A program made the translations under genes and the position numbers. From assembly GCA_007128135.1 (NCBI GenBank), contig SKYA01000140.1, positions 1-32,779 on the forward strand: 32,779 bases of DNA, read 5' to 3'. The notes beneath the pieces were generated by a model. That model had not been told where the DNA came from and did not search any database. It saw nothing but the letters and a program-made list of their open reading frames with translations. Source of the stretch: Paracoccaceae bacterium (GTDB lineage Bacteria > Pseudomonadota > Alphaproteobacteria > Rhodobacterales > Rhodobacteraceae). This document shows positions 4,711 to 18,658 of the stretch, piece after piece (position 1 is the stretch's first letter; each line of letters begins with the position of its first letter).

Positions 4711-5528
4711 ATGCCGTTCTTGCCATATCCGTCGCCGAATTCCGCATCGCATTCCGCAACCGCTGGGTGGCGATTGCCATTGCCATGATGGCACTGTTTT
4801 CGCTGGTTCTGGCGGGCGCAGGCAGCGCACCCACAGGCACCCTTGGCGCAGACCGGCTGTCGGTGACCGTGGCCAGCCTGACCAGCCTTGCGGTCTATCT
4901 GGTGCCTCTGGTCGCCCTGCTGATGAGCTTTGACGCCATCGCAGGCGAGGTCGAGCGCGGCACCCTTTCGCTGATGCTGACCTATCCGCTGGGGCGGTTC
5001 GAGATCCTGCTGGGCAAGTTCATCGCGCATCTGCTGATCCTGTCACTGGCCGTGGCCATCGGTTACGGGCTGGCCGCCGCCGCAGCAATCTGGAGCGATC
5101 CGCGCGCCAGCGCGGGCTTTCCGGCCATGTTGCGGCTGTTCTGGACCTCGCTTCTTCTGGGCGGAGCCTTCGTGGCCATCGGCTATGCCATCTCGGCCCT
5201 TGCGCGGCGCCCCGGTGCAGCAGCGGGGTTGGCCATCGCGCTCTGGCTGGTGATGATCGTGCTCTATGATCTGGGCCTGCTGGCGGCAGTGGTCGCCGAT
5301 GATGGCGGGCTCTTCACCACCGCGGTCTTCCCCTGGCTTCTGGTGGGCAACCCTGCGGATGCCTTCCGCCTGTACAACCTGGCGGCCTCCGAGGCGACGG
5401 CTGCCGCCGCCGGCATTGGTGCCGCTGCCCATACGATCCCGCCTGCACATGCTCTGGCCTCGATCCTGCTCTGGCCGCTGCTCGGCCTGGGGATGGCGGT
5501 GCTTGCCTTCAGAAAGGTGATTCCATGA
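4707..5528 (+). CDS. nosY: NosY, ABC transporter membrane subunit
   Basis: This 273-residue integral membrane protein is the permease partner of NosF in the NosDFY maturation system. Six hydrophobic segments can be seen, starting with residues about 20-35 and 55-75 and ending with a segment at about 250-268. The conserved stretch around residues 75-100 (AGEVERGTLSLMLTYPLGR) is typical of ABC-2 type permeases such as NosY. The gene overlaps both nosF and nosL by the ATGA arrangement, so it is clearly part of the nos operon. Confidence 0.94.
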   Translation: MNAVLAISVAEFRIAFRNRWVAIAIAMMALFSLVLAGAGSAPTGTLGADRLSVTVASLTSLAVYLVPLVALLMSFDAIAGEVERGTLSLMLTYPLGRFEILLGKFIAHLLILSLAVAIGYGLAAAAAIWSDPRASAGFPAMLRLFWTSLLLGGAFVAIGYAISALARRPGAAAGLAIALWLVMIVLYDLGLLAAVVADDGGLFTTAVFPWLLVGNPADAFRLYNLAASEATAAAAGIGAAAHTIPPAHALASILLWPLLGLGMAVLAFRKVIP

Positions 5529-6103
5529 CCCGCGCATTCCTTCTGTCTTGCGCCGTCCTTGCGCTTGCTGCCTGCCGCGAAGACGGCACGGCCAGCCTGC
5601 CCGAGCCTGTCACCATGACCGCCGAGGCCGTGGGCCATTTCTGCCAGATGGAGTTGCTGGAACACCCCGGTCCCAAGGCCCAGGTATTCCTTGATGGCCT
5701 GCCCTATCCGCTGTTCTTCAGCCAGGTGCGCGATGCCATCGCCTATGACAGGATGCCGGAACAGAGCCACATGATCGCGGCCATCTATGTTTCTGACATG
5801 GGCTGGTCCGGTGCCACATGGGAAGACCCGGGCGCGGATAACTGGATTCTGGCCAGCGTCGCGCATTATGTCGTCGGCTCCGATCTGGTTGGCGGGATGG
5901 AAACGCCGGAACTGGTGCCCTTTGCCGCGCCGGAAGCCGCGCATGCCTTTATTGCCCGCCACGGTGGTGAGGTTTTGGGCCTTGAGGCCGTCACCGACGA
6001 TATGGTTCTCGCCCCGGTCGTGTTCGAATCCGATATCGGTATCGACGATGATGGCGATTTCGAGCAACGCCTGCGTGCCCTGTCGCGTGGGCAGGAGGGT
6101 TGA
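5525..6103 (+). CDS. nosL: NosL, copper-chaperone lipoprotein
   Basis: NosL is an outer-periplasm lipoprotein that binds Cu(I) and hands copper to the NosZ assembly machinery. The 192-residue product begins with a lipoprotein signal whose lipobox is LAAC (Cys17). The family copper-binding region HFCQM (His38, Cys40, Met42) follows, then HPGPKAQVFLDG and a later methionine-rich stretch (HMIAAIYVSDMGW), all usual for NosL. It starts inside the last codons of nosY and ends two bases before the nosX start. Confidence 0.94.
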   Translation: MTRAFLLSCAVLALAACREDGTASLPEPVTMTAEAVGHFCQMELLEHPGPKAQVFLDGLPYPLFFSQVRDAIAYDRMPEQSHMIAAIYVSDMGWSGATWEDPGADNWILASVAHYVVGSDLVGGMETPELVPFAAPEAAHAFIARHGGEVLGLEAVTDDMVLAPVVFESDIGIDDDGDFEQRLRALSRGQEG

Positions 6104-6105
6104 CA

Positions 6106-7038
6106 ATGCCACTGTCGCGCCGTCGCTTTCTTGTCATTTCCGCCGCTGCGAGCGCATTGCCGGTGGCTGCGCGCGCGCAGGCCGTGCATCACTGGCGCGG
6201 GGTTGCGCTGGGAGCCGATGCCACAATCACCCTCGCGCATCCGGATGCAGCGCGGCTTGTCGAACTGGCGCGACGCGAAATCACCCGTCTGGAAACGGTC
6301 TTCAGCCTGCACACCCCCGGATCGGCGCTGAACCGGCTCAATGCGACGGGGCGGCTCGCAGCGCCACCGCCCGAATTGCTGGAATGCCTGAGCCATTGCG
6401 CGCATCTGCACCGCGCGACAGGCGGCCTGTTCGACCCCACCATCCAGCCGCTTTGGGTGCTTTACGCACGCCATTTTGCAGGGACGCGCATGGCGGAACT
6501 GCCAGTCTCGACAGCGCGAGAGGCGACGCTGGCCTCGGTCGGTTTCGACCGGGTGCGTCTGAACGCTGCAGAAATCCGGCTTGATCCGGGTTTTGCGCTC
6601 AGCCTGAACGGCATCGCGCAGGGCTATATCGCCGACCGGGTTGGCGCGCTGCTGCGCGCACAGGGCCTGCGCGATGTATTGGTGAACACCGGCGAATTCC
6701 AGGCGCTTGGCCTCGGCCCCGATGGCCAGCCCTGGCAGGTCGGGCTGAAAGCAGGCGACCGGGTTCTGCGGCGGCGCGCGGCCCTGCGCGACATGGCGCT
6801 GGCCAGTTCAGCCGCGCAGGGCATCAGCTTTGACGGGCAGGGCCGTGCGGGGCATATCCTGAACCCGAAAACCGGTCTGCCTGCCCCCGCATACTGGCAG
6901 CTCGTCAGCGTGAAGGCCCCGCAGGCCTGGCTTGCCGACGGGCTGAGCACGGCCTTTTGCCTGATGGATCGCCAGGCAATCACCCGGACCCTTGGCCTGT
7001 TTCCGCAAGCTGGTATCGAACGGCTGGTGTCCATGTAA
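6106..7038 (+). CDS. nosX: NosX, ApbE-family FMN transferase for NosR
   Basis: NosX is a periplasmic flavinyltransferase of the ApbE family that attaches FMN covalently to NosR. The 310-residue protein has a twin-arginine signal (SRRRFLV, residues 4-10) followed by AAARAQA. ApbE-type motifs are LSLNGIAQGYIAD (165-177), VNTGEFQALG (193-202), HILNPKTG (250-257) and ADGLSTAF (277-284). The ATG at 6106 is preferred over a TTG six bases earlier because a strong AGGAGGG element lies about 7 bases before it and the twin-arginine motif is then correctly placed. It is the last gene of the nos run; the next gene is on the other strand. Confidence 0.94.
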   Translation: MPLSRRRFLVISAAASALPVAARAQAVHHWRGVALGADATITLAHPDAARLVELARREITRLETVFSLHTPGSALNRLNATGRLAAPPPELLECLSHCAHLHRATGGLFDPTIQPLWVLYARHFAGTRMAELPVSTAREATLASVGFDRVRLNAAEIRLDPGFALSLNGIAQGYIADRVGALLRAQGLRDVLVNTGEFQALGLGPDGQPWQVGLKAGDRVLRRRAALRDMALASSAAQGISFDGQGRAGHILNPKTGLPAPAYWQLVSVKAPQAWLADGLSTAFCLMDRQAITRTLGLFPQAGIERLVSM

Positions 7039-7106: not shown

Positions 7107-8141
7107 TCAGGCCAGAATGGCCCGGGCCAGTCTGTCGGCGCTCTGGCGCACGGGATCCGCGACCGGCAGGCCGGTTTCATCCTCGAGCGACTTCACTGCG
7201 GTCTCTGCCTCTGGGGGTGACAATCGCGCCGTGTTCAGCGCGATCGCCACCACGCGGGCGGGTGTCAGCGCTCCCGCCGCGCGGGCCACGGCTTCGTTCA
7301 GGGCAATCACATCACGCAGCGGCGGGATGCGTACCGAGTCAAGTTCATCGAGTGTTTCCATGCCCGCGCGGTGACAAAGGATCATATGGGTGCACGCACT
7401 GCCACGCATCAGCGGCAGGGTCGCCGTGCTGCCCGGATGCAGTAGCGAGCCCTGCCCCTCGATCACGAGAATCTCGTGGTCGGCTGCCTCCAGCACCATG
7501 CGCTCGACCGCCCCTCCAGCATGATCCACGCGGATCGCATCCAGCGGGATGCCGCGCCCGGTGATGGCGATGCCGGTCTGGCCGGTGGCCAGAAAGGCGG
7601 CATCGCTGCCCATGTCCTGCAGGCTGCGCGTCAGTTCCAGACCGGCGGTCATCTTGCCGATGGCCATGTCCGTGCCCACCATAAGCACGCGGATGTTGTC
7701 CAGGCTGGCCGCGCGCGCCATGCCGATGGGTGGCGCGTCGCCTTGCGGCACGCGCAGGTCCCAGACCCACTGGCCTGCCCGCAACCTGTCTGCGAACAGC
7801 GGCTGAATCCTGTCATGCATCCCGTTCACAAGGCTCATGCCGGCCGCAACCGCCTGGTCCAGAACCGACACCCAGTCCTGCGGCAGGCGCCCGCCCGACG
7901 GGGCCGTTCCAAGCACCAGCACCTGCGCGCCCAGAGACTGCGCCTCTGCCAGTGTGGCGACAATCGGCACGTCGCTGTCCATGGTGCACAGATCGCGCAC
8001 GCGCCGGCCCGCCTGCGTGCTGTCGATCACGGCAGCGACCGGGTTGCGGCCATAGCGCAGGATGCCCTCGGCCATCTTGGCGTTGATCTTGCCAAAGGTG
8101 CCTTCGGTGAACAGCGCAATGGGCTGGGCTGGGTCAAGCAT
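7107..8141 (-). CDS. dgcN: DUF1611 protein, DgcN-like (N-acetyl-D-glutamate pathway)
   Basis: The 344-residue protein belongs to the DUF1611 family: a Rossmann-like N-terminal half (about 1-130) and a P-loop C-terminal half with GTDMAIGKMT at 156-165 and IEGQGS further on. Members next to a DgcA racemase have been reported as DgcN, an N-acetyltransferase acting on D-glutamate in marine proteobacteria; this is recalled, not checked. Other DUF1611 members have been linked to gamma-glutamyl or amino acid ligation chemistry, so the exact reaction is uncertain. It is the last gene of the ten-gene operon and its start overlaps the dgcA end by 8 bases, the usual sign of co-translation. Confidence 0.75.
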   Translation of the reverse strand: MLDPAQPIALFTEGTFGKINAKMAEGILRYGRNPVAAVIDSTQAGRRVRDLCTMDSDVPIVATLAEAQSLGAQVLVLGTAPSGGRLPQDWVSVLDQAVAAGMSLVNGMHDRIQPLFADRLRAGQWVWDLRVPQGDAPPIGMARAASLDNIRVLMVGTDMAIGKMTAGLELTRSLQDMGSDAAFLATGQTGIAITGRGIPLDAIRVDHAGGAVERMVLEAADHEILVIEGQGSLLHPGSTATLPLMRGSACTHMILCHRAGMETLDELDSVRIPPLRDVIALNEAVARAAGALTPARVVAIALNTARLSPPEAETAVKSLEDETGLPVADPVRQSADRLARAILA

Positions 8142-9165
8142 CGAGGGTGCCTCCGTGGCCAGGCCGGTCCGCAGGCAGGGTCACGCCGTGTTCGAAGGGA
8201 GCGCCGCTCGCCGGGTCGGGGTCGAGATTGAGATGGGAATCGAGGTCGACATAGTCGAACAGCGCCGAAAGCGACGCGCCCGCCGCGATCGAGACCGAGC
8301 TTTCGCCCATGCATCCGATCATGGTTTTCAGACCATGGGCGCGGGCGGTGGCGACAATGCGCAGGGCTTCGGTGATGCCGCCGCATTTCATCAGCTTCAG
8401 GTTCACCCCGTCCACGGAATTGGCAAAGCCGGGAATGTCGCCGGAAAAGCGGCAGGATTCATCGACGAATACGGGCAGGGACCGGTCGCGGAACAGATCG
8501 GGAAGCTGGTCTTCGGCCCCCTGCGCAAGCGGCTGCTCGACATATTCCACCCCGCGCGCCGCGAGCCAGCCCATCATGTGGTGCGCGTCCCCCAGCGACC
8601 AGCCGCCATTGGCATCGACCCGCAGCACTGCGCCGCTGCCTGCCGCTGCCTCATGCGCAGCGGCAAACATCGCCTTGTCAGCGTCGATCCCATCCGCGCT
8701 GCCCAGCTTTATCTTCAGCGCCCTTGCCCCGCGCGCCAGCAACAGCGGCACGCGCTCGCGCACCACCTCGGGCGGGTTGATCCCGACGGTCAGCGACGAG
8801 ACCACGCCGCGCCGCGCCAGCCCCAGCAACCGGTACAGCGGCATTCCCGCCTGTTTGGCGCGCAGATCCCACAGCGCCACATCCAGCGCCGCCAGCGCGC
8901 AGGCCCCGACACGCGCCGCGCGCGCGCGCGCCCAGATGTCATGGATCGCGCCCTCCAGTGCCTCTGCGCAGAACGCCTGCAACTGCGCCTGCCCCTCGGC
9001 CACAGTGGCTGCACCCTCGGTTGCACCCGGCGCCATCTCGCCCCATCCGGTATGCGCGCCTTCAGTCACCGAGACGAACAGGCTCTCGCCGCCCTCGTAA
9101 ACACCGCGCGATATCCGCAGCGGGAAGCGTTTCTTCAGGTAGCGCGTCTGATAGCAGATCTTCAT
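8134..9165 (-). CDS. dgcA: Enolase-superfamily racemase/epimerase, DgcA-like
   Basis: A 343-residue member of the mandelate racemase/muconate lactonizing subgroup, close to dipeptide epimerases. The barrel carries the catalytic KxK pair (Lys151, Lys153), the metal ligands Asp184, Glu210 and Asp235, and the opposite catalytic lysine Lys260 in KLMKCGG. This two-base arrangement is what 1,1-proton transfer at an alpha carbon needs. Database names are either L-Ala-D/L-Glu epimerase or N-acetyl-D-Glu racemase DgcA. The immediate overlap with a DUF1611 dgcN-like gene favours the second. It overlaps the deacetylase gene upstream by 4 bases. Confidence 0.78.
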   Translation of the reverse strand: MKICYQTRYLKKRFPLRISRGVYEGGESLFVSVTEGAHTGWGEMAPGATEGAATVAEGQAQLQAFCAEALEGAIHDIWARARAARVGACALAALDVALWDLRAKQAGMPLYRLLGLARRGVVSSLTVGINPPEVVRERVPLLLARGARALKIKLGSADGIDADKAMFAAAHEAAAGSGAVLRVDANGGWSLGDAHHMMGWLAARGVEYVEQPLAQGAEDQLPDLFRDRSLPVFVDESCRFSGDIPGFANSVDGVNLKLMKCGGITEALRIVATARAHGLKTMIGCMGESSVSIAAGASLSALFDYVDLDSHLNLDPDPASGAPFEHGVTLPADRPGHGGTLDA

Positions 9166-10178
9166 GCGACGCCTTTCAGAAAGGCTGTCAGATTGTCTGA
9201 CAGTGCGTCCGAGACATAGCCGCCCTCCTGCACCAGCACCAGAGGCAGGCCCAGTTCGGCGATCTCGGATGCGATGGCGTGAAAGCCCTGCGTTGTCACT
9301 GCCAACCCCTGAAACGGATCGTCAACATGCGCGTCCAGACCCAGCGCCACGACCACGACATCGGCCCCGAAAGCCCGGATACGCGCCAGCGCAGAGGCAA
9401 GCGCGGCGAGGTATTCCGTGTCGCCGGTGCCGCGCGACAGCGGCAGGTTCAGGTTGAAGCCAAGGCCCCGACCCTCGCCGCGTTCCTGCGCGCCCCCCCA
9501 GAAGAAGGGATAGAAACGGTCGGGGTCGGCATGCAGAGAGAGCGTCAGCACGTCCTCGCGGGTATAGAAGATGCCCTGCGTGCCGTTACCGTGATGCACG
9601 TCGATATCTAGGATCGCAGGCCGCAGTCCGCCTGTGCGCAGTCGTTCGGCGGCAATGGCCGAGTTGTTCAGAAAGCAGAACCCCCCGGCCAGATCGGCAA
9701 ATGCATGATGCCCCGGCGGGCGTGCCAGCACATAGACCGCACGCGCGCCGCCTGCCACCAGATCGGCGCCAGTGATGGCCGATTGCGCTGACCAGTAGGC
9801 TGCCTCCCAGGTCTGCGCCCCGATAGGGCAGGCGGTATCGGCCTGATGATACCCTGCCTGCCCGATTGCGGATTTCGGGTAATTGTCGGTTCGGGTGGCA
9901 GGATGGATATTGGGGATCACCTCGGGGCCGGCATCAGGGATGCGCAGCCAGCGTGGATAGATGGTCTGGAGAAAGTGCAGGTAGTCCGCACTGTGAATTG
10001 CAGCAATGGGCCCGAGCCCCGCATCTTCGGGGGCGTGGAACCGGCATCCTGCCGCCTGCGCCCCCGCCATCAGACGGGCAATGCGTTCGGGCGATTCCGG
10101 GCTGGGATAGGTCTTGCCATTGGCCATGAAGTGCTGCGGGTCATGCAGGCGCTGGCGGTCATCGAATACGGCTTTCAC
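9162..10178 (-). CDS. Histone-deacetylase-fold amidohydrolase, acetylpolyamine amidohydrolase-like
   Basis: The 338-residue protein has the full arginase/deacetylase active site: catalytic His157 and His158 in RPPGHHA, zinc ligands Asp193 and His195 in DIDVHHGNGT and Asp282 in LGLDAH, and the oxyanion tyrosine Tyr321 in QEGGY. These positions are almost the same as those known for acetylpolyamine amidohydrolase of Mycoplana, and the SLHADPDRFYPFF stretch also points to that branch. It should remove an acetyl (or similar acyl) group from a small amine or amino acid in the cytoplasm. Neighbours that add acetyl groups (GNAT, DgcN) and a polyamine-type transporter fit both an acetylpolyamine and an N-acetyl amino acid substrate. 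Specificity cannot be read from sequence alone. Confidence 0.87.
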   Translation of the reverse strand: MKAVFDDRQRLHDPQHFMANGKTYPSPESPERIARLMAGAQAAGCRFHAPEDAGLGPIAAIHSADYLHFLQTIYPRWLRIPDAGPEVIPNIHPATRTDNYPKSAIGQAGYHQADTACPIGAQTWEAAYWSAQSAITGADLVAGGARAVYVLARPPGHHAFADLAGGFCFLNNSAIAAERLRTGGLRPAILDIDVHHGNGTQGIFYTREDVLTLSLHADPDRFYPFFWGGAQERGEGRGLGFNLNLPLSRGTGDTEYLAALASALARIRAFGADVVVVALGLDAHVDDPFQGLAVTTQGFHAIASEIAELGLPLVLVQEGGYVSDALSDNLTAFLKGVA

Positions 10179-10669
10179 TCGGCTCTCCTGATCAGATGTC
10201 CGAAGCCCTGCGGGCCAAGGCGCATGTCCTGCATGCCTGTCGCGGGCGCAAAGCCCAGCCGGTGGTAGAAGTGCTGCGCGGAATGGCTGTGGTCATAAAC
10301 CGCAAGTTTCAGCCATGTCGCCTGCCAGCGCGCCGCGCCCTCGCGCGCCACCTGCGCCAGCAGCCGTGCGCCAAGTCCGTGTCCGCGTGCCTGCGCACCG
10401 ACCCACAGGTCCGACACATAGACCCCCGCCGCACCGCGCACGGTCGAGAAGACCGGACTGTAAAGCGCCGCGCCAAGGGTTTGATCACCCCGCAATGCCA
10501 ACAACCCGTGCGCGCAAGGCTGCGCACCCAGAACGGCCTGCGCCAGCGTGGCGCTGTCGGTGGCGTAAGCCTCGCCGATATCGGCACTCAGGGTACGCAG
10601 GGCCACTTCCAGCCGTGCGAGATCATCCGCATTCCGTACGTCGCGGAAGGCAAGCGCCACATCATGCAT
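10175..10669 (-). CDS. GNAT-family N-acetyltransferase
   Basis: A 164-residue single-domain GNAT protein. The acetyl-CoA pyrophosphate-binding loop is QARGHGLGARLL (residues 93-104), preceded by the strand VYVSDLWV, and followed by LKLAVYDHSHSAQHFYHRLGF, the usual motif B with the conserved Asn position replaced by His/Ser and the general-acid tyrosine region FYHRLGF. The layout resembles diamine and amino acid acetyltransferases, but the acceptor substrate is unknown. It overlaps the BKACE gene by 8 bases and the deacetylase gene by 4, so it is made together with both. Confidence 0.85.
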   Translation of the reverse strand: MHDVALAFRDVRNADDLARLEVALRTLSADIGEAYATDSATLAQAVLGAQPCAHGLLALRGDQTLGAALYSPVFSTVRGAAGVYVSDLWVGAQARGHGLGARLLAQVAREGAARWQATWLKLAVYDHSHSAQHFYHRLGFAPATGMQDMRLGPQGFGHLIRRAE

Positions 10670-11588
10670 TGATGCCCTCCGCGCCCTTCAGCCCCAGCGT
10701 GCCGCGCACCTCGTCGGGGGTCATGACGACGCGCCCCAGCCGCTCGACAATCGCGCGGATCTTTTCCACCTGCTCGGCATTGGACTGCGCCAACTGGCCG
10801 CGCGCAATGGTCAGGCTGTCTTCCAGCCCCACGCGCACATGCCCGCCCATGGCCGCGGCCATGGTGACCAGCGGCATCTGGAACCGCCCCGCTGCCAGTA
10901 CCGAGAACAGGTAATCGCCCGCAAACAGCTTGTCCGCAATCCGTATCATATGCGTCAGGTTTTCCGGGTCCGGCCCCATGCCACCCAGAACGCCAAAGAC
11001 GAACTGGATGAAATAGGGCGGCCTGATCAGGCCCCGGTCCGCGAAATGGCGCAGCATGTAGAGATGGCTCAGGTCATAGCATTCGAACTCGAAACGCGCG
11101 CCACGCTCCTGGCCAAGGCCGGTCAGGATGCGGGCAATATCACGCGGCGTGTTCCTGAAGACCAGGTCATCCGTGTTTTCCAGAAACGGCTTTTCCCAGT
11201 CATGCTGCCAGTTGCGGTCTCTGCCCAGCATCGGGTAGAGCGCGAAATTCATGGTGCCCATGTTCAGCGACGCCATTTCCGGCGCAATCGCCAGAGGCGC
11301 CGCCAGACGCTCGTCGAGCGACATGACCGCGCTGCCGCCGGTGGACAGGTTCAGTACGGCGTCGGTGTCGCGGGCCAGTGCGGGCACGAAGCCGTTGAAA
11401 TGCTCCAGCGCCGCCGAGGGCCGTCCCGTCACCGGGTCGCGCGCATGCAGATGCAGGATGGAGGCGCCCGCCTGCGCGGCTTCGATGCCCTGACGCGCGA
11501 TTTCCTCCCCCGTGACCGGCAGATGCGCCGACATGCTGGGGGTGTGGATCGACCCCGTAAGCGCGCAGGTGATGATGATGCCCGTCAT
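10662..11588 (-). CDS. Beta-keto acid cleavage enzyme (BKACE, DUF849 family)
   Basis: The 308-residue protein belongs to the zinc-dependent BKACE family, whose best-known member cleaves 3-keto-5-aminohexanoate with acetyl-CoA to give acetoacetate and an aminoacyl-CoA in lysine fermentation. The zinc ligands His46 and His48 in LHLHARD are at the family positions, and the family stretches LNLSTGG (79-85), GPDPENL and GGHVRVGLEDS (248-258) are present. Family members use different beta-keto acids, so the substrate here is open. It lies directly after the aminotransferase gene (6-base gap), which could make its keto acid substrate. Confidence 0.88.
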   Translation of the reverse strand: MTGIIITCALTGSIHTPSMSAHLPVTGEEIARQGIEAAQAGASILHLHARDPVTGRPSAALEHFNGFVPALARDTDAVLNLSTGGSAVMSLDERLAAPLAIAPEMASLNMGTMNFALYPMLGRDRNWQHDWEKPFLENTDDLVFRNTPRDIARILTGLGQERGARFEFECYDLSHLYMLRHFADRGLIRPPYFIQFVFGVLGGMGPDPENLTHMIRIADKLFAGDYLFSVLAAGRFQMPLVTMAAAMGGHVRVGLEDSLTIARGQLAQSNAEQVEKIRAIVERLGRVVMTPDEVRGTLGLKGAEGINA

Positions 11589-11594
11589 GCGCCC

Positions 11595-12935
11595 TCACGC
11601 CATTTCCGGCAAGGCCGGCGCAAGATCACGGGCCAGTCGGGTCAGCGCAGTGTCAAGCGTGTCGGCAATCTCGTCCAGATGCGCCTCGGTCACGATGAGG
11701 GGCGGGCAGACCATGATATGATCGCCCTCCACCCCGTCGCGCGTGCGGCGCGAATAGACGATCAGCCCCATCTGATAGGCAATATCCACCAGCCGCTGAT
11801 GCGCATTCAGATGCGCAGGCAAAGGGGCCATGGTGTCGCGGTCGGCCATCAGTTCAAACGCCATCAGCAGCCCCTTGCCGCGCACATCGCCGATCACCGG
11901 ATGCCGCGCCATCAACCCATCGAGCCGCGTGTGCAAAGCGTCCCCCATGACTGCCGCATTCTGCACCAGCCCCAGCCGCGCGATTTCGTCGATCACGGCG
12001 GCCCCGGCGGCGCAGGCCAGCGGGTTTCCGGCGTAGGTGAACCCATGCAGGAAGCCGCCCCCCTCCAGCACGGCCGCAACCAGATCATCGCGCGCGGCCA
12101 TCGCACCCAGTGGCACATATCCGGCGGCAAACCCCTTGGACAGCACCACGATATCGGGCGCGAGATCCCAGTGCTCCAGCCCCAGAAACCGCCCCGTGCG
12201 CCCCGCACCAGTCATCACCTCGTCCAGGATCAACAGCACCCCGTAACGGCGGCAGATCTCCTGCACCGCCTGCATGTAGCCTGCAGGCGGCACCAGCGCG
12301 CCAGTGGAGGCCCCGCCGACGGGCTCGACGATGAAGCCCAGCACCGACTCCGGCCCCTGCGCGATGATCTCGGCTTCCAGCATCGCGGCGTAATGCGCGC
12401 CGGTGACGGGGTCGGTGGGATCCAGCCCGTCCAGATAGGCGCGCGGGGCGGGAATCCTGGGCATCTCGCGCATCATGGGCGCAAAGGGCTCGGTCAGCGG
12501 GGCATAGCCCGTGACCGCAAGCGCGCCCAGCGTGCAGCCGTGATAACTGGGGGCGCGGCTGATGACCTTCCAGCGCGAACCCTGTCCCGTTGCCAGGGCG
12601 TATTGGCGCGCAAGCTTGATGGCGGATTCCACCGCCTCCGACCCGCCCGAAACGAAAAACACCTTGTTCATCCCCTCGGGGCACAGCGCGGCGGTTCTGG
12701 CGGCCAGCCGCTCGGAAGCCTCGGTCTCGAAATGCAGCCGGTAGCCGAAGGTCGATTTCTCCATCTGCCGACGCATGGCGTCGAGCACGCGCTCGTTCGA
12801 ATGGCCGATATTGCACACCATTGCCCCCGAAGACCCGTCGAGATAGCGCTTGCCGTCCACGTCCCACATATACACCCCGCGCGCCTGGTCGAGCACGGGG
12901 CGGCGCTGGCCTGTCTGGTAGAAAAGATGGCTCAT
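11595..12935 (-). CDS. Class III PLP-dependent aminotransferase
   Basis: A 446-residue fold-type I aminotransferase of the omega-amino acid/diamine group. The PLP site shows GGSEAVESAIKLAR (97-110), the ring-nitrogen aspartate Asp238 in LILDEV, and the Schiff-base lysine Lys267 in LSKGFAAGY. The start at 12935 begins MSHLFYQ and aligns with the usual family N-terminus; the frame is open much further upstream, but that part runs antisense-free over the ABC ATPase gene on the same strand in another frame and shows no domain. It follows the ATPase gene by 5 bases and precedes BKACE. It probably converts a terminal or beta amino group to an aldehyde or keto group. Confidence 0.9.
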   Translation of the reverse strand: MSHLFYQTGQRRPVLDQARGVYMWDVDGKRYLDGSSGAMVCNIGHSNERVLDAMRRQMEKSTFGYRLHFETEASERLAARTAALCPEGMNKVFFVSGGSEAVESAIKLARQYALATGQGSRWKVISRAPSYHGCTLGALAVTGYAPLTEPFAPMMREMPRIPAPRAYLDGLDPTDPVTGAHYAAMLEAEIIAQGPESVLGFIVEPVGGASTGALVPPAGYMQAVQEICRRYGVLLILDEVMTGAGRTGRFLGLEHWDLAPDIVVLSKGFAAGYVPLGAMAARDDLVAAVLEGGGFLHGFTYAGNPLACAAGAAVIDEIARLGLVQNAAVMGDALHTRLDGLMARHPVIGDVRGKGLLMAFELMADRDTMAPLPAHLNAHQRLVDIAYQMGLIVYSRRTRDGVEGDHIMVCPPLIVTEAHLDEIADTLDTALTRLARDLAPALPEMA

Positions 12936-12940
12936 GGCAG

Positions 12941-14014
12941 TTATCCGGGCAGGGCCGCACAATCCTGCGGCCTGAGGGTCATATGCACCTGCGCGCCAGC
13001 GGAAAAGGGACGTTCGTCGATCATGTTGATGGCCTGAAGCTGAATGTCGCCGGCGCGGACGAAATAACGCACGGATTGCCCCTGATAGTCCACGGTTTCC
13101 ACAATGGCGGGGGCAGAAAAAGCACCATCTTCGGGCGGGCTGTCGCGCAGAAGCAGTTTTTCGGCGCGGATCACCAGCTTGGCCGCCCCTTTGCCCTTCA
13201 GATGCGGGGCCTTTGCCGCTGGAACGGTGACCTTGCCGAAGACCGGCACTTCCAGCACTGCCTGCTTGGCCCCGCACGACAGGCAACGCCCGTCAAGAAT
13301 GTTGGACGCGCCCAGAAACCGGGCCACGAATTCACTGGCAGGAGTATTATAGACCTCTTCGGGGGCACCCACCTGCTCGACACGTCCATCCGACATCACC
13401 ACGATCTGATCGGACATCGCCAGCGCCTCGGACTGGTCATGGGTGACGAACACGGTCGTCACCCCGATACGCGCCTGAATATTCTTCAACTCGACCCGCA
13501 TATCCTCGCGCAGATTGGCATCGAGTGCCGAAAGCGGCTCATCCAGCAACAGCACATCGGGTTCGATCACGATGGCGCGCGCCAGCGCGATGCGCTGCTG
13601 CTGCCCGCCCGACAGCGCCTTGGGGTAACGGTTGCCCAGATGCGGCAGTTGCACCAGTTCCAGAGCCTCGGCCACGCGGCGCGTGATCTCTGCCCGGGCG
13701 ACATTGCGGTAGCGCAGGCCAAATGCGACATTCTCGGCCACGGTCTTGTGCGGAAACAGCGCATAATTCTGGAACACCAGCCCCAGATTGCGCTTGTGGA
13801 TCGGGACATCGTTGACGCGCCTGTCATTGATGATGATCTCGCCCTCGGTCGGGTCCAGCAGCCCCGCGATCATCCGCAGCGTCGTGGTCTTGCCGCAACC
13901 CGAAGGGCCGAGCAGCGTGGTGAAGCTGCCTTCGGGTATGGTCAGCGACGTCCTGTCCACCGCAAGGAATGTCCCGAACCGCTTGACGATATTGCTCAGA
14001 TTGACAGCGCCCAT
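12941..14014 (-). CDS. ABC transporter ATPase, PotA-like
   Basis: A 357-residue ATPase of the spermidine/putrescine and iron (CUT1-like) importer group. Motifs are Walker A GPSGCGKTT (36-44), the Q-loop Gln82, the signature LSGGQ (134-138), Walker B LLLDEP (155-160) and THDQSEA with the switch histidine. A C-terminal TOBE-type domain fills about residues 240-350. A C-L-S-C pair around residue 260 is unusual for the family. It works with the two permeases and the binding protein upstream in the operon. The gene is separated from the binding-protein gene by 109 bases that hold a strong hairpin. Confidence 0.92.
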   Translation of the reverse strand: MGAVNLSNIVKRFGTFLAVDRTSLTIPEGSFTTLLGPSGCGKTTTLRMIAGLLDPTEGEIIINDRRVNDVPIHKRNLGLVFQNYALFPHKTVAENVAFGLRYRNVARAEITRRVAEALELVQLPHLGNRYPKALSGGQQQRIALARAIVIEPDVLLLDEPLSALDANLREDMRVELKNIQARIGVTTVFVTHDQSEALAMSDQIVVMSDGRVEQVGAPEEVYNTPASEFVARFLGASNILDGRCLSCGAKQAVLEVPVFGKVTVPAAKAPHLKGKGAAKLVIRAEKLLLRDSPPEDGAFSAPAIVETVDYQGQSVRYFVRAGDIQLQAINMIDERPFSAGAQVHMTLRPQDCAALPG

Positions 14015-14091
14015 GATCTACCTTTCGCGGCAGGAAAGCAGCCTGCATGACGCATCGCTGCCGCTTTCATCTTGCCGGAAATACTCCGGGG

Positions 14092-14115
14092 GTCCGGGGG
14101 GCTGGCCCCCCGGAC
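14092..14115. repeat. Perfect GC hairpin between binding-protein and ATPase genes
   Basis: GTCCGGGGGG at 14092-14101 and its exact reverse complement at 14106-14115 form a 10-base stem around CTGG. It lies 8 bases after the binding-protein stop. Such intercistronic stems often protect the upstream message or stop part of transcription so that more binding protein than ATPase is made. The motif also resembles a CCGGGGG-type hairpin that I recall as frequent between genes in Rhodobacterales genomes, so it may be a dispersed element. There is no T-tract. Confidence 0.7.
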
Positions 14116-14123
14116 GTTGCGAC

Positions 14124-15266
14124 TCAGAAACCGCGCTGCACGCGGGCAAAGGTTTCGGACCATTCGGCCTCGTTCCCGTTCCAGTAGACGGGGTCGGCAA
14201 AGGTCAGGGCTTCGAGCGTGCCGGTCGGGTCAAAGGCGGGCAGGGTCGGGATCTTGTCGCCCAGATCGACCTTGGTGCCATCCAGCGCGGGTGGGTAATT
14301 CTGCCCCTCTGCCACCGCGATCGAGGTTTCTGGCGCAAGCATGAAGTTCAGCAACTCCTCGCAGGCCTCGATAGGTGAGCCCTTGATGACGAAAAGGCAT
14401 TCCTGCCAGCCAAAGCTGTTGGGCGCGTCGTAATAGCCGATGTCATGGCCCTGTTCCTGCAGCGCCGCGATCCTGCCTGACCAGCCTTCGGTCACATAGA
14501 TTTCCTCTTCGGCCAGAAGGCTCATCAACTCCGCGCCCGAGCCCCAGTATTTCAGCGCAAGGTCGCGATGCGCGCGGATCGCATCCCAGGCGGCCTCCAT
14601 GTCCTGAATGTCGTTGGGGCTCTGGCCGGTCTGCAGCGCCGCATACCACAGCCGCGTGCGCCAGTCGCTCCAGCCGCCGATCTTGCCCTCATAGGCCGGG
14701 TCGATCAGGATGGATGCGCCTTTCTCGCGGATTTCCTCGTCCGAGATGAACTTGCGGTTATAGGCCAGCCCCGTTGTGCCGTAGTTATAGGGCACCGCCG
14801 ACAGATGGTCGGGCGTGATGCTGCGGAACGCATTGGTCAGCGCATCCATGACCAGTTCCATGTTCGGGATGTTGTCCAGGTTCAGCTCCACATCCAGCCC
14901 GAAATTCACATAGCGCGCATAGTCGAACACGCCCGAAAGATGGGCGATATTGTATTCGCCCTCGCGGCTTGAACGCACCTGCGCCAGATACTCGTCACCG
15001 CCAGCGAATGTGCCGTCCACCACGTTGATGCCTGTGGCGGCGGTGTAGGGGTCGAAGGCGTGACGGCGGAAGGCCTCGGAGACGACACCGCCCCAGCCAT
15101 CGAAGCGCACTTGCGTCACATCCTGGGCAAAGGCCATGCGCGCAAACGGGGTCTGCACGCCGTAAGCGACACCGGCCGCGCCGATCAGGCCCAGAAAACT
15201 GCGGCGGTCCAGATCGCCATTGCGATAGCGTTCCAGCAGGCGTTCATAGCGTTTGGTATTGTCCAT
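14124..15266 (-). CDS. Extracellular solute-binding protein, PotD-like, Tat-exported
   Basis: The 380-residue periplasmic binding protein of the operon's ABC importer. After a charged N-terminal leader it carries a twin-arginine motif (DRRSFLG, 20-26), a hydrophobic stretch and a likely cleavage site after AFA (residue 47). The mature part resembles spermidine/putrescine-type proteins (VRFDGWGGVVSEAF at its start, YNYGTTGLAYNRK mid-way). An AGGAGA element precedes the ATG by a normal distance. Ligand could be a polyamine, an amino acid derivative or another small cation; family membership does not decide this. Confidence 0.9.
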   Translation of the reverse strand: MDNTKRYERLLERYRNGDLDRRSFLGLIGAAGVAYGVQTPFARMAFAQDVTQVRFDGWGGVVSEAFRRHAFDPYTAATGINVVDGTFAGGDEYLAQVRSSREGEYNIAHLSGVFDYARYVNFGLDVELNLDNIPNMELVMDALTNAFRSITPDHLSAVPYNYGTTGLAYNRKFISDEEIREKGASILIDPAYEGKIGGWSDWRTRLWYAALQTGQSPNDIQDMEAAWDAIRAHRDLALKYWGSGAELMSLLAEEEIYVTEGWSGRIAALQEQGHDIGYYDAPNSFGWQECLFVIKGSPIEACEELLNFMLAPETSIAVAEGQNYPPALDGTKVDLGDKIPTLPAFDPTGTLEALTFADPVYWNGNEAEWSETFARVQRGF

Positions 15267-15303
15267 TGTCTTCTCCTTGTCGGGGTTGGGGGGGGCGCGG
15301 TTC

Positions 15304-16089
15304 TTACATGCCGCGTTTCATGGATATCTGGCGGGCAATCGCGGCCCCCAGCAAAGGCAGGCCAACGGTGATGACGATCATCACCGTGCCGAGCGCATTG
15401 ATTTCCGGGCTGATCGAATTGCGCAGCATCGAGAAGATCTGCGTGGGCACGGTTTCCACCCCGCCCGGCTTCCAGAACAGCGTTCCGGTGATGTCATCGA
15501 AGGAAATCGTGAAGGCGAACAGTGCGCCTGCCGCCACCGCCGGCATCAGAAGCGGCAACGTGACGGAAAAGAAGGTCTGGACAGGCGAGGCCCCGAGGCT
15601 GAGGGCCGCCTCCTCCACATCGCGGCGGATGCTGACCAGCCGCGCCTGCACCACCAGAATGACGAAGGGCAGGGTGAATATGACATGCCCCGCCAGCAGG
15701 AGCGCAAAGCTCTTGCCGATACCCAGCCAGTTCAGGAACAACAACAGCGCCACCGCCAGAACCACCTCGGGCACCAGAATGGGTGCGATCAGGATGGTGG
15801 TAATCAGGTTCTTTCCCGGGATCGCGTAGCGCACCAGCGCAAGGCTGGCCAGCACGCCCAGCGTGGTGGAAATCAGCGCCGTCAGCAGGCCAAGGATCAG
15901 CGAGGTGCGAAAGGCGCGCATCACGGCGTCGTTGTTCCACAACGCCTCGAACCAGCGGATGGAAAAGCCTGTCATCGGAAAGCTGCCGAACTGGTTCTGG
16001 TTGAACGACAGCAACACCACCACTGCCACGGGCAGGAACATGAACAGATAGACCAGTATCGTATATGCGCGGATTGCGGCCCAGCCCAT
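15304..16089 (-). CDS. ABC transporter permease, PotC-like
   Basis: A 261-residue inner-membrane permease with about six hydrophobic segments. The cytoplasmic loop that contacts the ATPase is seen as EEAALSLGASPVQTFFSVTLPLLMPAV (roughly residues 160-186), the EAA motif. It pairs with the upstream permease to form the channel. Its ATG shares one base with the stop of that gene (TGATG), so the two are translationally coupled; a 37-base gap separates it from the binding-protein gene. Confidence 0.92.
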   Translation of the reverse strand: MGWAAIRAYTILVYLFMFLPVAVVVLLSFNQNQFGSFPMTGFSIRWFEALWNNDAVMRAFRTSLILGLLTALISTTLGVLASLALVRYAIPGKNLITTILIAPILVPEVVLAVALLLFLNWLGIGKSFALLLAGHVIFTLPFVILVVQARLVSIRRDVEEAALSLGASPVQTFFSVTLPLLMPAVAAGALFAFTISFDDITGTLFWKPGGVETVPTQIFSMLRNSISPEINALGTVMIVITVGLPLLGAAIARQISMKRGM

Positions 16090-16955
16090 CAGCCCAGCCC
16101 CTTCGTCAGTTGCGACATTCCCAGAAAGCGATTGTAGACCGCGACCAGTGCGCCAAGCACGATCAGCAGAAGCAGCGACAGCGCCGAGCCCATCGGCCAG
16201 TTGAGTTGCGTGATGATCGCCTCGAACACCAGATTGGCGAACATCGCGTCACGCGGCCCGCCAAGGATCAGCGGCGTGATATAGGTGCCCGCACCCAGCA
16301 CGAAGCACAGCAGCCCCCCTGCCGCCAGACCGGGCAGCGATAGGGGCAGCGTCACCTGCAGGAACGCCTGCCAGCGCGTCGCCCCCAGCGACGTGGCCGC
16401 GTCCTCCAGGTTGGTGTCGATCCCGTCAAGGCTGACATAGATGTTCAGCACCATGAAGGGCAGCAGGAAATGCACCAGCCCCAGAATGACCGTGGCCTCG
16501 TTATACAGCATCTGTATCGGAGACGAGATCACGCCCATGGACATCAATGCCGTATTGAGTGCGCCCGAGGAGCCGAGGATGTTGATCCAGCTCATCGTGC
16601 GGATGATGTAGCTGATCCAGAAGGGCAGCATCAGCAACAGCAGCAGGATCAGCTTGTTGCCGCTGGACCGGGTGATGAAATAGGCCGCCGGATAGCCCAG
16701 AAGCGCACAGAAGAACGTGGTGATGGCCGCGATCTTGAGCGTGTTGAGCAGAATGTAGCGATAGAACGGGTCGGTCAGGGCGCGTTGCCAGTTGTCCAGA
16801 TGGAACCCCACCGTATCCGGCCCCACGGCCGACCGCAGCCAGAAGGAATAGACCACAATGAACACAAGCGGAATCAGCAGCAGAAGCGCGACCGCCCCCA
16901 GGGCAGGGGACAGCAGGATCCAGGGCTGCCGCTTCTCGCGGGCTTCGACGGACAT
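16089..16955 (-). CDS. ABC transporter permease, PotB-like
   Basis: A 288-residue inner-membrane permease, first gene of the ten-gene operon. It has six or so hydrophobic segments and an EAA loop LEDAATSLGATRWQAFLQVTLP. The start at 16955 (MSVEAREK) is preferred because CAGGA lies 8 bases before it; the frame is open to a further start at 17021, which would add 22 poorly conserved-looking residues and run into the divergent promoter region. The gene faces away from the LysR gene at 17064, so that regulator probably controls it. Confidence 0.9.
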   Translation of the reverse strand: MSVEAREKRQPWILLSPALGAVALLLLIPLVFIVVYSFWLRSAVGPDTVGFHLDNWQRALTDPFYRYILLNTLKIAAITTFFCALLGYPAAYFITRSSGNKLILLLLLMLPFWISYIIRTMSWINILGSSGALNTALMSMGVISSPIQMLYNEATVILGLVHFLLPFMVLNIYVSLDGIDTNLEDAATSLGATRWQAFLQVTLPLSLPGLAAGGLLCFVLGAGTYITPLILGGPRDAMFANLVFEAIITQLNWPMGSALSLLLLIVLGALVAVYNRFLGMSQLTKGLG

Positions 16956-17030
16956 GATGCGGGTCCTGTTGGGTGCAGTTGCGTGATCGGATGGGATACT
17001 GATTGCAAGACGGGCGCGCATCAGGCAAAT

Positions 17031-17063
17031 TAATAATTGATATAGTGATTATAGTTATCATCA
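17031..17063. promoter_or_regulatory. AT-rich divergent promoter/operator between operon and lysR
   Basis: In an otherwise GC-rich stretch, about 33 bases directly before the lysR start are AT-rich. They contain the inverted repeat TGATA (17038-17042) and TATCA (17056-17060) spaced by 13 bases, a typical LysR-type dyad. Inside it lie TATAAT on the minus strand (17053-17048), a perfect -10 hexamer for the transport operon, and TATAGT on the plus strand (17041-17046) for lysR. No good -35 is seen on either strand, which fits activator-dependent promoters. Confidence 0.6.
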
Positions 17064-18062
17064 ATGACAGAAGATTCTGAAACCGACAGGCTGACCCGCG
17101 ACCTGGACTGGAACCTGCTGCGCAGTTTCGTCGCCATGGCCGAGGCGCGCTCGATAACCGATGCGGCCCAGCGGCTGCGTCTGACACAGCCATCTGTCTC
17201 TATTGCTTTGAAAAAACTAGAGGATCGTATCGGCAAGCGCCTCATCGACCGGGCCCCCGGACGCTATGAGCTGACCCGTGCGGGTGCCCTGCTCTATCGA
17301 GAGGCGGTCGAGATTCACGGCGCGGTGCATCGGCTCTCGACACTCATGCGCGACATGACCGACGAGGTGACGGGACATGTCCGCATTGCCGTTGCCAGCC
17401 ATGTCGTCTGCCCGCTTTTTGATCAGGTCCTGTCCGAATTTCACGCAGCCTATCCGCGCGCGACGCTGTCGATATCGGTTCTGGGGTCCGGCTCCGCCCT
17501 GGCCAGCGTGGCCTCCCGCACGGCATCCTTCGCGATCTGCCTTGTCCACCGACGTGATCCCAAGATCGAATACCTGCGCCTGTATCGAGAGTTCTTCGGC
17601 CTGTTCTGCGGCCCGCCACATCCATTGTTCGGGCGCCGCGGGCTGCGGCAGAAGGATCTGGCCGGGCATTCGGCAGTCAGCTTCGAGACGGACAGACTGC
17701 ATGACGCCCTGCGCCCCGTCACCCTGCTGCGCGCGGAGTCGGAATTGAGCGAGCGTATCATAGGCACCTCAAGCCACCTTGAAGAGGTGCGCCGCATGGT
17801 GATCTCGGGGCTTGGCATAGGCCCGTTGCCCCTTCATGTGGTTGAACGAGACGTCAGGGACGGGCTTCTCTGGCGGCTGCCGCCTTATGTGAACCCGCCC
17901 CCCATCGACGTGCATCTGGCGTGGAACCCCAAGGCCATGCTCAACCGCGCCGAATCGGCCCTCCTTGGGGCATTGCAGGAAGCCATCGCCTCTGTTCCCA
18001 TTGCCGACCGCACCTATGGTCTGGATACCAGTCACGAAGGCACTGAAGGCAAGGCCACCTGA
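17064..18062 (+). CDS. LysR-family transcriptional regulator
   Basis: A 332-residue LysR-type regulator with the N-terminal winged helix-turn-helix at about residues 17-75 (RSITDAAQRLRLTQPSVSIALKKLEDRIG) and a substrate-binding effector domain after it. It is divergent from the ten-gene transport and catabolism operon and is very likely its regulator, with the operon substrate or an intermediate as inducer. The ATG at 17064 has no ribosome binding sequence before it and an in-frame TAG lies 12 bases upstream, so the message may be leaderless or have a very short leader. Confidence 0.9.
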   Translation: MTEDSETDRLTRDLDWNLLRSFVAMAEARSITDAAQRLRLTQPSVSIALKKLEDRIGKRLIDRAPGRYELTRAGALLYREAVEIHGAVHRLSTLMRDMTDEVTGHVRIAVASHVVCPLFDQVLSEFHAAYPRATLSISVLGSGSALASVASRTASFAICLVHRRDPKIEYLRLYREFFGLFCGPPHPLFGRRGLRQKDLAGHSAVSFETDRLHDALRPVTLLRAESELSERIIGTSSHLEEVRRMVISGLGIGPLPLHVVERDVRDGLLWRLPPYVNPPPIDVHLAWNPKAMLNRAESALLGALQEAIASVPIADRTYGLDTSHEGTEGKAT

Positions 18063-18222
18063 GTGTCCGTTCTCGATCCGGCAGACGCGCCCGGACCCCA
18101 GCCTGCAAACCGTTACGCGAGGCAAGCGAGCGGCCTGGGATTGCCGTCGGGTCGGGCAGTCAACCATGCATCCGGTTATCGCGCGGCTTGCAACTGCCCT
18201 CGCGGCATCCGAGGATGGCAGG

Positions 18223-18594
18223 ATGGATCATGACACCAGACGTTCCCGGTTGCGCATCCGCATCCACTTTGACGACCACGGGATGATCGGCCCCGGCAAG
18301 GCCGAATTGCTCGAACGCATCGATCGCTGCGGCTCGATCGCTGCGGCCGGGCGCGAGATGGGGATGAGTTACAAGCGCGCGTGGGAACTCGTGGGCACGC
18401 TGAACGCCATGTTCCGCGATCCGGTGGTCGAAAGCACACGCGGTGGTCCCGGTGGCGGTGGCGCGGTTCTGACCGAGGCGGGCCGCGAGGTGCTGAACCT
18501 CTACCAGGCGTTCGAGCGCGAGGTGGCAGAAGCCGGCGCCGGGCGGATTGCGGCCCTGCACTCCCGGCTGAAGGATCTTCCCGAAGAAAGATAA
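18223..18594 (+). CDS. Short ModE-like regulator (DNA-binding domain only)
   Basis: A 123-residue protein matching the N-terminal winged-helix domain of the molybdate-responsive regulator ModE: RIRIHFDDHGMIGPGKAELLERIDRCGS-type opening, then SIAAAGREMGMSYKRAWELV (38-57) and the GGPGGGGAVLTEAG wing. The C-terminal molybdate-binding (Mop) domains of full ModE, which is about twice as long, are absent. The start at 18223 has GAGGATGGCAGG just before it; an in-frame ATG at 18166 would add 19 residues. It lies just upstream of modA and a ModE-box-like palindrome, so it probably controls modA. Confidence 0.83.
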   Translation: MDHDTRRSRLRIRIHFDDHGMIGPGKAELLERIDRCGSIAAAGREMGMSYKRAWELVGTLNAMFRDPVVESTRGGPGGGGAVLTEAGREVLNLYQAFEREVAEAGAGRIAALHSRLKDLPEER

Positions 18595-18608
18595 CGCTTG
18601 CGCCATCG

Positions 18609-18652
18609 GTCCTTCTCGGGCGATATTTTCCTAAAAATATATCGAGAAGGAC
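18609..18652 (+). promoter_or_regulatory. ModE-box-like palindrome inside a hairpin covering the modA ribosome binding site
   Basis: CGATATTTT (18621-18629) and AATATATCG (18636-18644) are inverted half-sites, 8 of 9 positions symmetric, spaced by 6 bases; this is the layout known for ModE boxes (CGNTATATA-N6-TATATNNCG). Around it, GTCCTTCTCG (18609-18618) and CGAGAAGGAC (18643-18652) are perfect inverted repeats, and ATATTTT/AAAATAT pair around CCTA in the centre. As RNA this folds into a long hairpin whose 3' arm contains AGAAGGA (18645-18651), the modA Shine-Dalgarno sequence. Confidence 0.75.
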
Positions 18653-18658
18653 CTGCAT

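Follow-up and report, generated by a model that had tools for sequence, protein, structure and literature searches.

Genes at the locus

The window analysed here, a stretch of 32,779 nucleotides from a Paracoccaceae bacterium (contig SKYA01000140.1 of assembly GCA_007128135.1), carries a row of ten minus-strand genes, spanning positions 16955 down to 7107, and a divergent plus-strand gene for a LysR-type regulator. The row combines an ABC transporter with a class III aminotransferase (AT3), a DUF849/BKACE enzyme, a GNAT acetyltransferase, a histone-deacetylase (HDAC)-fold deacetylase resembling acetylpolyamine amidohydrolase (APAH), an enolase-superfamily protein (here EPI) and a DUF1611 protein (Table 1), and our subject is the pathway that these genes may encode. 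All ten open reading frames (ORFs) and the LysR gene proposed in the first-pass annotation of this DNA were found, and domain and profile models placed the ten products in the families it had named. Its description of overlaps or gaps of a few bases held for the enzyme part, where 5 bases separate the ATPase gene from AT3 and 6 bases AT3 from BKACE, followed by four overlaps of 4-8 bases, but not for the transporter part, where 37 bases lie between permease 2 and the binding protein and 109 bases between the binding protein and the ATPase.

Permease 1 most likely starts at 16955 rather than 17021. The ATG at 16955 and the codons that follow it are conserved across 12 of 12 aligned relatives, and around 17021 nine of them have an ATG in another frame, two have one in frame and one has none. 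Moving the start widens the gap to the LysR gene to 108 bases. The deacetylase gene begins with GTG. A simple promoter and terminator scan gave no signal above chance.

Table 1. Features of the operon and its divergent regulator gene, in window coordinates, with the basis of each assignment.
Feature	Position	Strand	Basis
ABC permease 1, PotB-like position	16089..16955	-	BPD_transp_1; start revised from 17021
ABC permease 2, PotC-like	15304..16089	-	BPD_transp_1; PotC model 211 bits (cut-off 326)
Solute-binding protein, SBP_bac_8 family	14124..15266	-	Family match; structure model, mean pLDDT 81; fold matches
ABC ATPase with TOBE domain	12941..14014	-	ABC_tran, TOBE_2; passes PotA subfamily model TIGR01187 (363.1 bits, cut-off 355.6)
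Class III aminotransferase (AT3), YodT-like, putative beta-transaminase	11595..12935	-	Aminotran_3; best PDB match 3I4J
DUF849/BKACE enzyme	10662..11588	-	NF053538 467.7 bits (curated cut-off 430); BKACE15 structures 8RIO/8RIP, E about 1e-102
GNAT N-acetyltransferase, putative omega-amine acetylation	10175..10669	-	Acetyltransf_1; best PDB match thialysine acetyltransferase 12JC, weak (43.6 bits)
Histone-deacetylase-fold amidohydrolase, APAH-like	9162..10178	-	Hist_deacetyl; best PDB matches 3men, 9gkz, 3q9b, named acetylpolyamine amidohydrolase or aminohydrolase
EPI, enolase-superfamily dipeptide-epimerase / N-acyl-amino-acid-racemase type	8134..9165	-	MR_MLE; 3iji, 3jva
DUF1611 protein, DgcN paralogue	7107..8141	-	DUF1611_N, DUF1611; 2obn 265 bits
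Divergent LysR-type regulator	17064..18062	+	LysR-family models
Conserved AT-rich block, candidate LysR binding or promoter region	~17026..17054	.	Alignment of 13 intergenic regions, window included

Conservation of the enzyme core

The BKACE protein was searched in 295 genomes of the same family, 136 of which had a match at E 1e-60, and 60 match places were fetched; the window's own excepted, these were the 49 top scorers and 11 weaker matches. The set was extended by 80 loci from named genomes, the best of 588 by BKACE alignment, and by the neighbourhoods of 20 of the 23 AT3 matches among 398 genomes of the phylum, the other three being already in the set. Deduplication left 109 loci (identified below by L numbers) with AT3, or with BKACE and an APAH-like gene; the sample is biased, AT3 was scored as present at 45% identity, and the scripted ORF calling overlooks some genes. 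Sixteen of the 60 fetched places, L066 and the 15 weakest (L078-L092), held no core.

AT3 was present in 92 of the 109 loci, BKACE in 103, APAH in 99 and GNAT in 86. AT3 and BKACE co-occurred in 86 unique loci, and in 84 of these AT3 was followed directly by BKACE on the same strand, an arrangement far beyond chance. AT3, BKACE and APAH, usually with GNAT, were found together in Rhodobacterales, Hyphomicrobiales and Thalassospira, and in metagenome-assembled genomes (MAGs) labelled Sneathiellales and Gammaproteobacteria. The GNAT gene was absent from 14 of the 79 loci holding the other three, as would be expected if the substrate can arrive already acetylated. In 68 of the 109 loci the opposite strand carried a LysR homologue (at least 40% identity) no more than 8 kb from the core.

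AT3, BKACE and APAH stood together with a Pot-type binding protein of the window type in 46 loci, which include, by their record titles, Salipiger bermudensis, Roseovarius mucosus, Alloyangia pacifica, Roseibium aggregatum, Hoeflea marina, Rhodovulum robiginosum and Thalassospira lucentensis. Other loci pair the same enzymes with His-type (SBP_bac_3) or Liv-type (Peripla_BP_6, BPD_transp_2) transporters. Transporter type could be identified in 76 of the 95 rows of an AT3 tree (47 Pot, 23 His and 6 Liv), and at least seven changes of type are needed on it, a count that excludes the 19 rows with no detected known binding protein and rises to 15 if these are treated as a state of their own. The stable part is thus the enzyme core, not the transporter, and the core is widespread. 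The first-pass annotation had read the ten genes as one unit with a single pathway, an idea to be given up if homologous clusters routinely parted transporter from enzyme genes. The transporter does part from the enzymes, and the racemase-type pair at the end of the operon occurs in only 11 of the 95 AT3 rows; what travels together is the core.

A homologue of DMFA2_C (N,N-dimethylformamidase-like) was also seen near the core in rhizobial loci (L212-L220, L153, L165 and L137), just before AT3 where this was read and, in L137, immediately before BKACE. In L124 (3204-9822) a BKACE-GNAT-APAH trio stands beside a protein with a class II tRNA-synthetase domain, which we read as EpmA-like; a link to beta-lysylation of EF-P by EpmA was considered and judged a coincidence of a single locus.

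Two cleavage systems behind one aminotransferase

AT3 is annotated as "aspartate aminotransferase family". Its best structural match, 3I4J, is the nearest structure given for Bacillus subtilis YodT (PMC6522883), and AT3 and YodT thus share the same nearest structure. By sequence the adjacent enzyme is a BKACE family member, and cleavage of a beta-keto acid with acetyl-CoA would be its expected reaction. His46, His48 and Glu256, which we take to be metal ligands, are invariant in 14 aligned sequences, as is Tyr171. The role of the catalytic Tyr is taken from PMC12871164. The same long subfamily includes the characterised BKACE15, which takes neutral C5-C6 3-keto acids (PMC11961710).

Six of the 109 loci have AT3 and no BKACE (L205, L209, L222, L218, L219 and L221), and three of these (L205, L209 and L222) encode both subunits of a CoA-transferase. 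The L209 subunits pass 3-oxoacid CoA-transferase cut-offs and adjoin an ArgE/DapE deacylase gene, and in L222 a thiolase gene comes after the CoA-transferase. Two plasmids, L225 and L227, carry AT3, CoA-transferase subunits A and B, an ArgE/DapE deacylase and an acetyl-CoA C-acyltransferase in a row, followed by an amidohydrolase and an alanine racemase. The CoA-transferase subunits of these five loci are of 3-oxoacid type. A thiolase is found in L222, L225 and L227, and an ArgE/DapE-type deacylase in L205, L209, L225 and L227. A third plasmid, L226, has AT3, BKACE and an HDAC-fold protein, followed by homologues of the same amidohydrolase (64% identity) and racemase (51%). Where AT3 and BKACE occur together, no CoA-transferase of this type was detected within 7.5 kb at 40% identity (0 of 86 loci).

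BKACE (86 loci) or a CoA-transferase (3 loci) therefore lies near AT3 in 89 of 92 AT3 loci. These are unrelated systems for cleaving beta-keto acids, and their alternation behind AT3 suggests that AT3 makes a beta-keto acid, that is, that it acts on a beta-amino acid. A deacylase is present in most loci of both versions, and since these deacylases are themselves unrelated, an N-acyl group should be present in the pathway.

Several other copies of these families were observed. The window genome has a second BKACE-family gene on another contig (G000:C53:11795-12589, L002; 291.5 bits to Pfam BKACE), and a BKACE copy with one in-frame TGA in another genome (G034:C1:915021-915932) is apparently a decayed gene. 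A Phaeobacter inhibens plasmid (L224) carries two class III aminotransferases alongside pca genes and another BKACE.

Acetyltransferase, deacetylase and transporter

The GNAT protein had no match to any AblB model at E 0.001. The deacetylase retains the RPPGHH and EGGY motifs in alignment, with PFQ in place of PIS and Ile105 at the place of MrApaH Glu106. All four features are discussed for bacterial polyamine deacetylases (APAH, cluster 4), PIS and Glu106 in connection with polyamine specificity, and polyamine-active PsApaH likewise lacks Glu106, so that this residue is not required in all members (PMC11532494). Glu106 is accordingly weakened as a polyamine marker. With both PIS and Glu106 replaced, we refer to the window enzyme as APAH-like rather than as APAH.

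The binding protein scores well under the PotD cut-off (32.1 bits against 582). The best fold matches of its structure model are PotF, PotD, MotA, AgtB and gamma-aminobutyrate (GABA) receptors, at 16-21% identity. The acidic ligands of PotD appear to be replaced in the alignment, which we do not use as proof.

Proposed pathway

We propose that the operon serves to break down a 3,omega-diamino acid aerobically, with beta-lysine (3,6-diaminohexanoate) or its N-epsilon-acetyl derivative as the likeliest substrate, and give this reading a probability of about 0.4; we are considerably surer that a beta-keto acid passes from AT3 to BKACE or a CoA-transferase than we are of the substrate. The reactions below, like the substrate, are proposals built on gene content, synteny, replacement patterns and the family of BKACE. 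The Pot-type ABC transporter would bring in the substrate, and the GNAT enzyme would acetylate the distal amine of any that arrived free, which would keep the later keto acid neutral and prevent its closure to a cyclic imine. AT3 would transaminate C3, yielding 6-acetamido-3-oxohexanoate, and BKACE could split this with acetyl-CoA into 4-acetamidobutyryl-CoA and acetoacetate. After loss of CoA, the APAH-like enzyme would take off the acetyl group and so release GABA, which could enter the succinate-semialdehyde route. EPI and the DUF1611 protein may add an optional means of handling the opposite enantiomer or a linked D-amino acid, a task that in other loci could fall to a DauA-like dehydrogenase, mostly with RidA, or to an amidohydrolase with a racemase. 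The genome encodes a succinate-semialdehyde dehydrogenase and a 3-oxoacid CoA-transferase subunit over cut-off, so the products could be used.

Beta-lysine is the best match among known metabolites for a beta-amino acid with a second amine that needs acetyl protection. We considered but dropped kynurenine, ectoine, carnitine, aspartate derivatives and polyamine conjugates, as transamination of these gives no fitting beta-keto acid. N-epsilon-acetyl-beta-lysine is a compatible solute, found also in some bacteria. It is described as an osmolyte of methanogens (PMC12776343). The closest named relatives of the locus include CSSed metagenome bins, one of them Natronohydrobacter, and Rhodobaculum claviforme, which may point to saline or soda surroundings, in which osmolytes of this kind occur. 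Comparative evidence, in that AT3, BKACE, APAH and usually GNAT travel together, supports the single pathway of acetylation, transamination, acetyl-CoA cleavage and deacetylation outlined in the first-pass annotation, and among the substrates it had suggested, acetyl-beta-lysine fits the core best.

Exchangeable modules at the end of the operon

EPI and the DUF1611 protein had been described as DgcA-like and DgcN-like, which is right as to family and wrong if taken as identity: EPI scores 196.6 bits against the DgcA model NF042940 (cut-off 400), and the DUF1611 protein 229.3 bits against the DgcN model NF041892 (cut-off 480). The same genome encodes, on another contig, a true DgcA (512.8 bits) adjoining a DgcN homologue. 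A DgcN homologue adjoined DgcA in 20 of 20 fetched DgcA loci, with the DgcN gene first, opposite to the arrangement in the window.

Eleven aligned EPI rows show LKIKL (LKVKL in two), VDAN, VEQP (IEQP in three), DESC, LKLMK and DLD, which we take to be the KxK motif, the D-E-D metal site, the second-side Lys and the DxD motif of a dipeptide epimerase or related enolase-superfamily racemase; these residues are kept in EPI. In the aligned rows EPI also keeps the arginine of the DgcA ISRG stretch. Another loop, which carries Arg in 18 of 18 aligned DgcA rows (two of the 20 DgcA loci fall outside the alignment), reads EGA in 14 of 14 EPI rows, and the loss of this Arg would argue against a glutamate side chain and allow a cationic one. 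The acidic residue in the EPI loop was also considered as a sign of a cationic substrate, an argument weakened by DgcA rows having their own Glu two or three columns on. EPI and DgcA are split by a fully supported long branch on the EPI tree, in which few inner forks are supported; this split alone is used here, and the placement of the L232 row, hand-cut from an open frame, is not.

EPI of the window kind was found in 11 of the 295 family genomes at 59% identity or more and, at E 1e-50, in one of 385 sampled genomes of the class, the window's own. It lies within core loci in seven of the 11 genomes. On the AT3 tree its distribution requires two changes, which we read as two gains of an EPI-DUF1611 add-on, and inversion at the alpha carbon, which the first-pass annotation had included in the pathway, would be at most an optional entry step. 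In a Hyphomicrobiales MAG (L155:9983-12027) we also noted a distant BKACE followed directly by a gene with a 31%-identity EPI-like match.

Two further modules occupy this part of other loci. A DauA-like flavin adenine dinucleotide (FAD) dehydrogenase, whose nearest structure (tested for L077) is D-arginine dehydrogenase, lies near the core in 32 of the 109 loci, in 23 of them with a RidA homologue. An amidohydrolase with an alanine-racemase-family protein is found in five loci, the plasmids L225, L226 and L227 together with L103 and L117, in none of which an EPI or DauA-like gene was detected or annotated beside it; the L226 racemase is nearest to the PRK13340 model (349 of 434 bits). No tail module was scored in 51 of the 95 AT3 rows, a figure that includes undetected genes and cut contigs. 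All three modules deal with chirality.

It is possible, if on the unlikely side, that the core is one pathway and that EPI and the DUF1611 protein serve an unrelated reaction, merely parked in the operon. Consistent with this are the small share of AT3 rows that have EPI and the presence of the pair outside the core in four of the 11 EPI genomes. One of these (G253) has its EPI near flagellar and adenine-deaminase-like genes (L232) and an EPI-less core elsewhere (L047); in L234 EPI diverges from genes for a Liv transporter, an AT3-like protein and an FAD oxidoreductase, and L235 presents another setting. Against it stand the two gains beside the core and the position of EPI directly after APAH in nine of ten EPI loci (the tenth lacks APAH), which is the place of the DauA-like gene in 30 of its 32 loci. 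EPI and the DauA-like gene never coexist (0 of 109 loci), and in L233, outside the core, the pair still follows APAH as an APAH-EPI-DUF1611 trio.

Evidence against the proposal and alternative readings

Several observations weigh against catabolism of a beta-lysine compound. AT3 lies under the cut-offs of both of its nearest NCBIfam models, PRK07483 (449.9 of 485 bits) and PRK06917 (NF005375; 419.7 of 535 bits), the latter of which we take to be the YodT model. The modelled fold of the binding protein, equally like polyamine, opine and GABA receptors, does not appear to single out a ligand. Seven of the 86 loci that hold both AT3 and BKACE have no APAH (L049, L050, L054, L056, L096, L208 and L212), of which L212 stops at a contig end and L050 also lacks GNAT, and 17 of the 109 loci have BKACE and APAH with no AT3 at the 45% threshold. 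Nor is the replacement of cleavage and deacylase genes wholly clean: L143 and L210 hold both APAH and an M20 deacylase, L208 has BKACE with M20, L137 has BKACE and APAH with a CoA-transferase pair nearby and no AT3, L218 and L219 have AT3 and APAH with neither BKACE nor CoA-transferase, and L221 has AT3 alone. A KamA-family aminomutase was not found in the genome (95% complete) in a TIGR03822 search, nor is KamA associated with the core across the 295 genomes (6 of 45 genomes with the core and 22 of 250 others at a 300-bit threshold, p = 0.40), so the link to lysine 2,3-aminomutase was dropped and a beta-lysine compound would have to be imported.

The tail modules present a further difficulty. 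Enzymes of the enolase superfamily remove a proton from the position adjacent to a carboxylate, and EPI requires a stereocentre at the alpha carbon, so known chemistry would not allow it to invert a beta-amino acid at C3; basic alpha-amino acids are also what the DauA-like and broad-racemase-like alternatives bring to mind. In principle C3 would be accessible to a pyridoxal-phosphate racemase or a flavoprotein. This leaves three readings: the modules handle a linked D-alpha-amino acid, the pathway starts from an alpha-amino acid and BKACE has an unrecognised role in it, or EPI has a new chemistry. That three unrelated and interchangeable enzyme sets solve the same stereochemical problem for an aerobic core acting on an acetyl-protected beta-lysine osmolyte is an idea that we regard as improbable. 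If true, an epimerase-type member of the enolase superfamily would take part in a beta-amino acid pathway, a role that to our knowledge has been demonstrated for none of them.

One alternative is catabolism of a basic alpha-amino acid, for example D- or L-lysine or ornithine, by an N-acetyl route, and we consider it unlikely. GNAT would protect the distal amine, AT3 would remove the alpha-amine, and the deacetylase would free an omega-amino acid, with EPI and DUF1611, the DauA-like dehydrogenase or the racemase admitting the D-enantiomer and BKACE acting later or on an unrecognised keto acid. All three modules have a natural chemistry on alpha-amino acids, and the DauA-like gene, the PRK13340-like racemase and the missing DgcA-loop Arg in EPI would fit; an alpha-keto acid, however, is no substrate for BKACE or for a 3-oxoacid CoA-transferase with thiolase, one or other of which is near AT3 in nearly all AT3 loci.

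Use of an acetylated polyamine or diamine, imported by the Pot-type transporter, deacetylated by the APAH-like enzyme and transaminated at the freed amine by AT3, is very unlikely as the main function. The transporter family and the nearest solved deacetylases point that way, and class III putrescine aminotransferases exist, among them PDB matches of AT3. Polyamines, however, would give aldehydes rather than beta-keto acids, leaving BKACE and the CoA-transferase unexplained; the deacetylase lacks PIS and Glu106, though PsApaH also lacks the latter, and the transporter type varies among loci. A D-glutamate or muropeptide route around EPI and DUF1611, suggested by their membership of the DgcA and DgcN families and by the ISRG arginine, is highly improbable, with both proteins far under the cut-offs, EPI on its separate long branch without the other loop Arg, and a true DgcA beside a DgcN homologue elsewhere in the genome.

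Flanking genes

By eye, the genes beside the operon at window positions 4707-7038 resemble the tail of an accessory cluster for nitrous oxide reductase, with an ABC permease and with NosL-like and ApbE/NosX-like proteins. Past the LysR gene, positions 18100-19456 appear by eye to encode a ModE-type regulator and a molybdate-binding-like protein.

Relation to known systems

We found no paper on this gene set, and no account of other microbes consuming N-epsilon-acetyl-beta-lysine, in the open PMC literature, subscription papers being outside that search. A counterpart set in Bacillus subtilis is arranged as yodQRST next to kamA-yodP. KamA makes beta-lysine there (PMC6522883). Both systems combine a YodT-like class III aminotransferase with an acetyltransferase, a deacylase and CoA-dependent splitting of a beta-keto acid. 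They differ in that the window has BKACE instead of CoA-transferase and thiolase, an HDAC-fold enzyme instead of an M20 deacylase, a GNAT without an AblB match, no KamA found, and a transporter included. The CoA-transferase and ArgE/DapE parts of the kamA-yod type do occur in the alphaproteobacterial loci L205, L209, L225 and L227, though not in the window.

In yeast-type degradation of N6-acetyl-lysine, acetyl protection is likewise followed by transamination and later deacetylation, but the product of transamination is an alpha-keto acid and no BKACE takes part. The DgcN-DgcA pathway for D-glutamate (NF041892, NF042940) has the same two protein families adjacent, but in the window their order is reversed, identity is about 31-39% over aligned stretches, far under cut-offs, and one active-site loop differs in EPI. 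Anaerobic lysine fermentation (KamA, KamDE, Kdd, Kce, and Kal or Kat) also uses a DUF849/BKACE enzyme to cleave a beta-keto amino acid with acetyl-CoA, and one variant has a class III beta-transaminase, Kat (PMC3149608); the window differs in having no aminomutases, and its keto acid would come from transamination of an acetyl-protected diamino acid. In the oxidative deoxyribonate pathway a neutral 3-keto acid, formed in one step, is similarly split by BKACE to acetoacetate, but it derives from a sugar acid via an SDR dehydrogenase, with no amine chemistry (PMC6365646).

The exchange of BKACE for CoA-transferase and thiolase is an inexpensive but strong pointer to what AT3 does chemically, and likewise to the chemistry of the HDAC-fold enzyme and the DUF1611 pair; naming the pathway would apply to many marine, salt-lake and root bacteria. 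The parts belong to known families, and what is new is their combination, a variant of the YodT-type scheme in which BKACE performs the cleavage.

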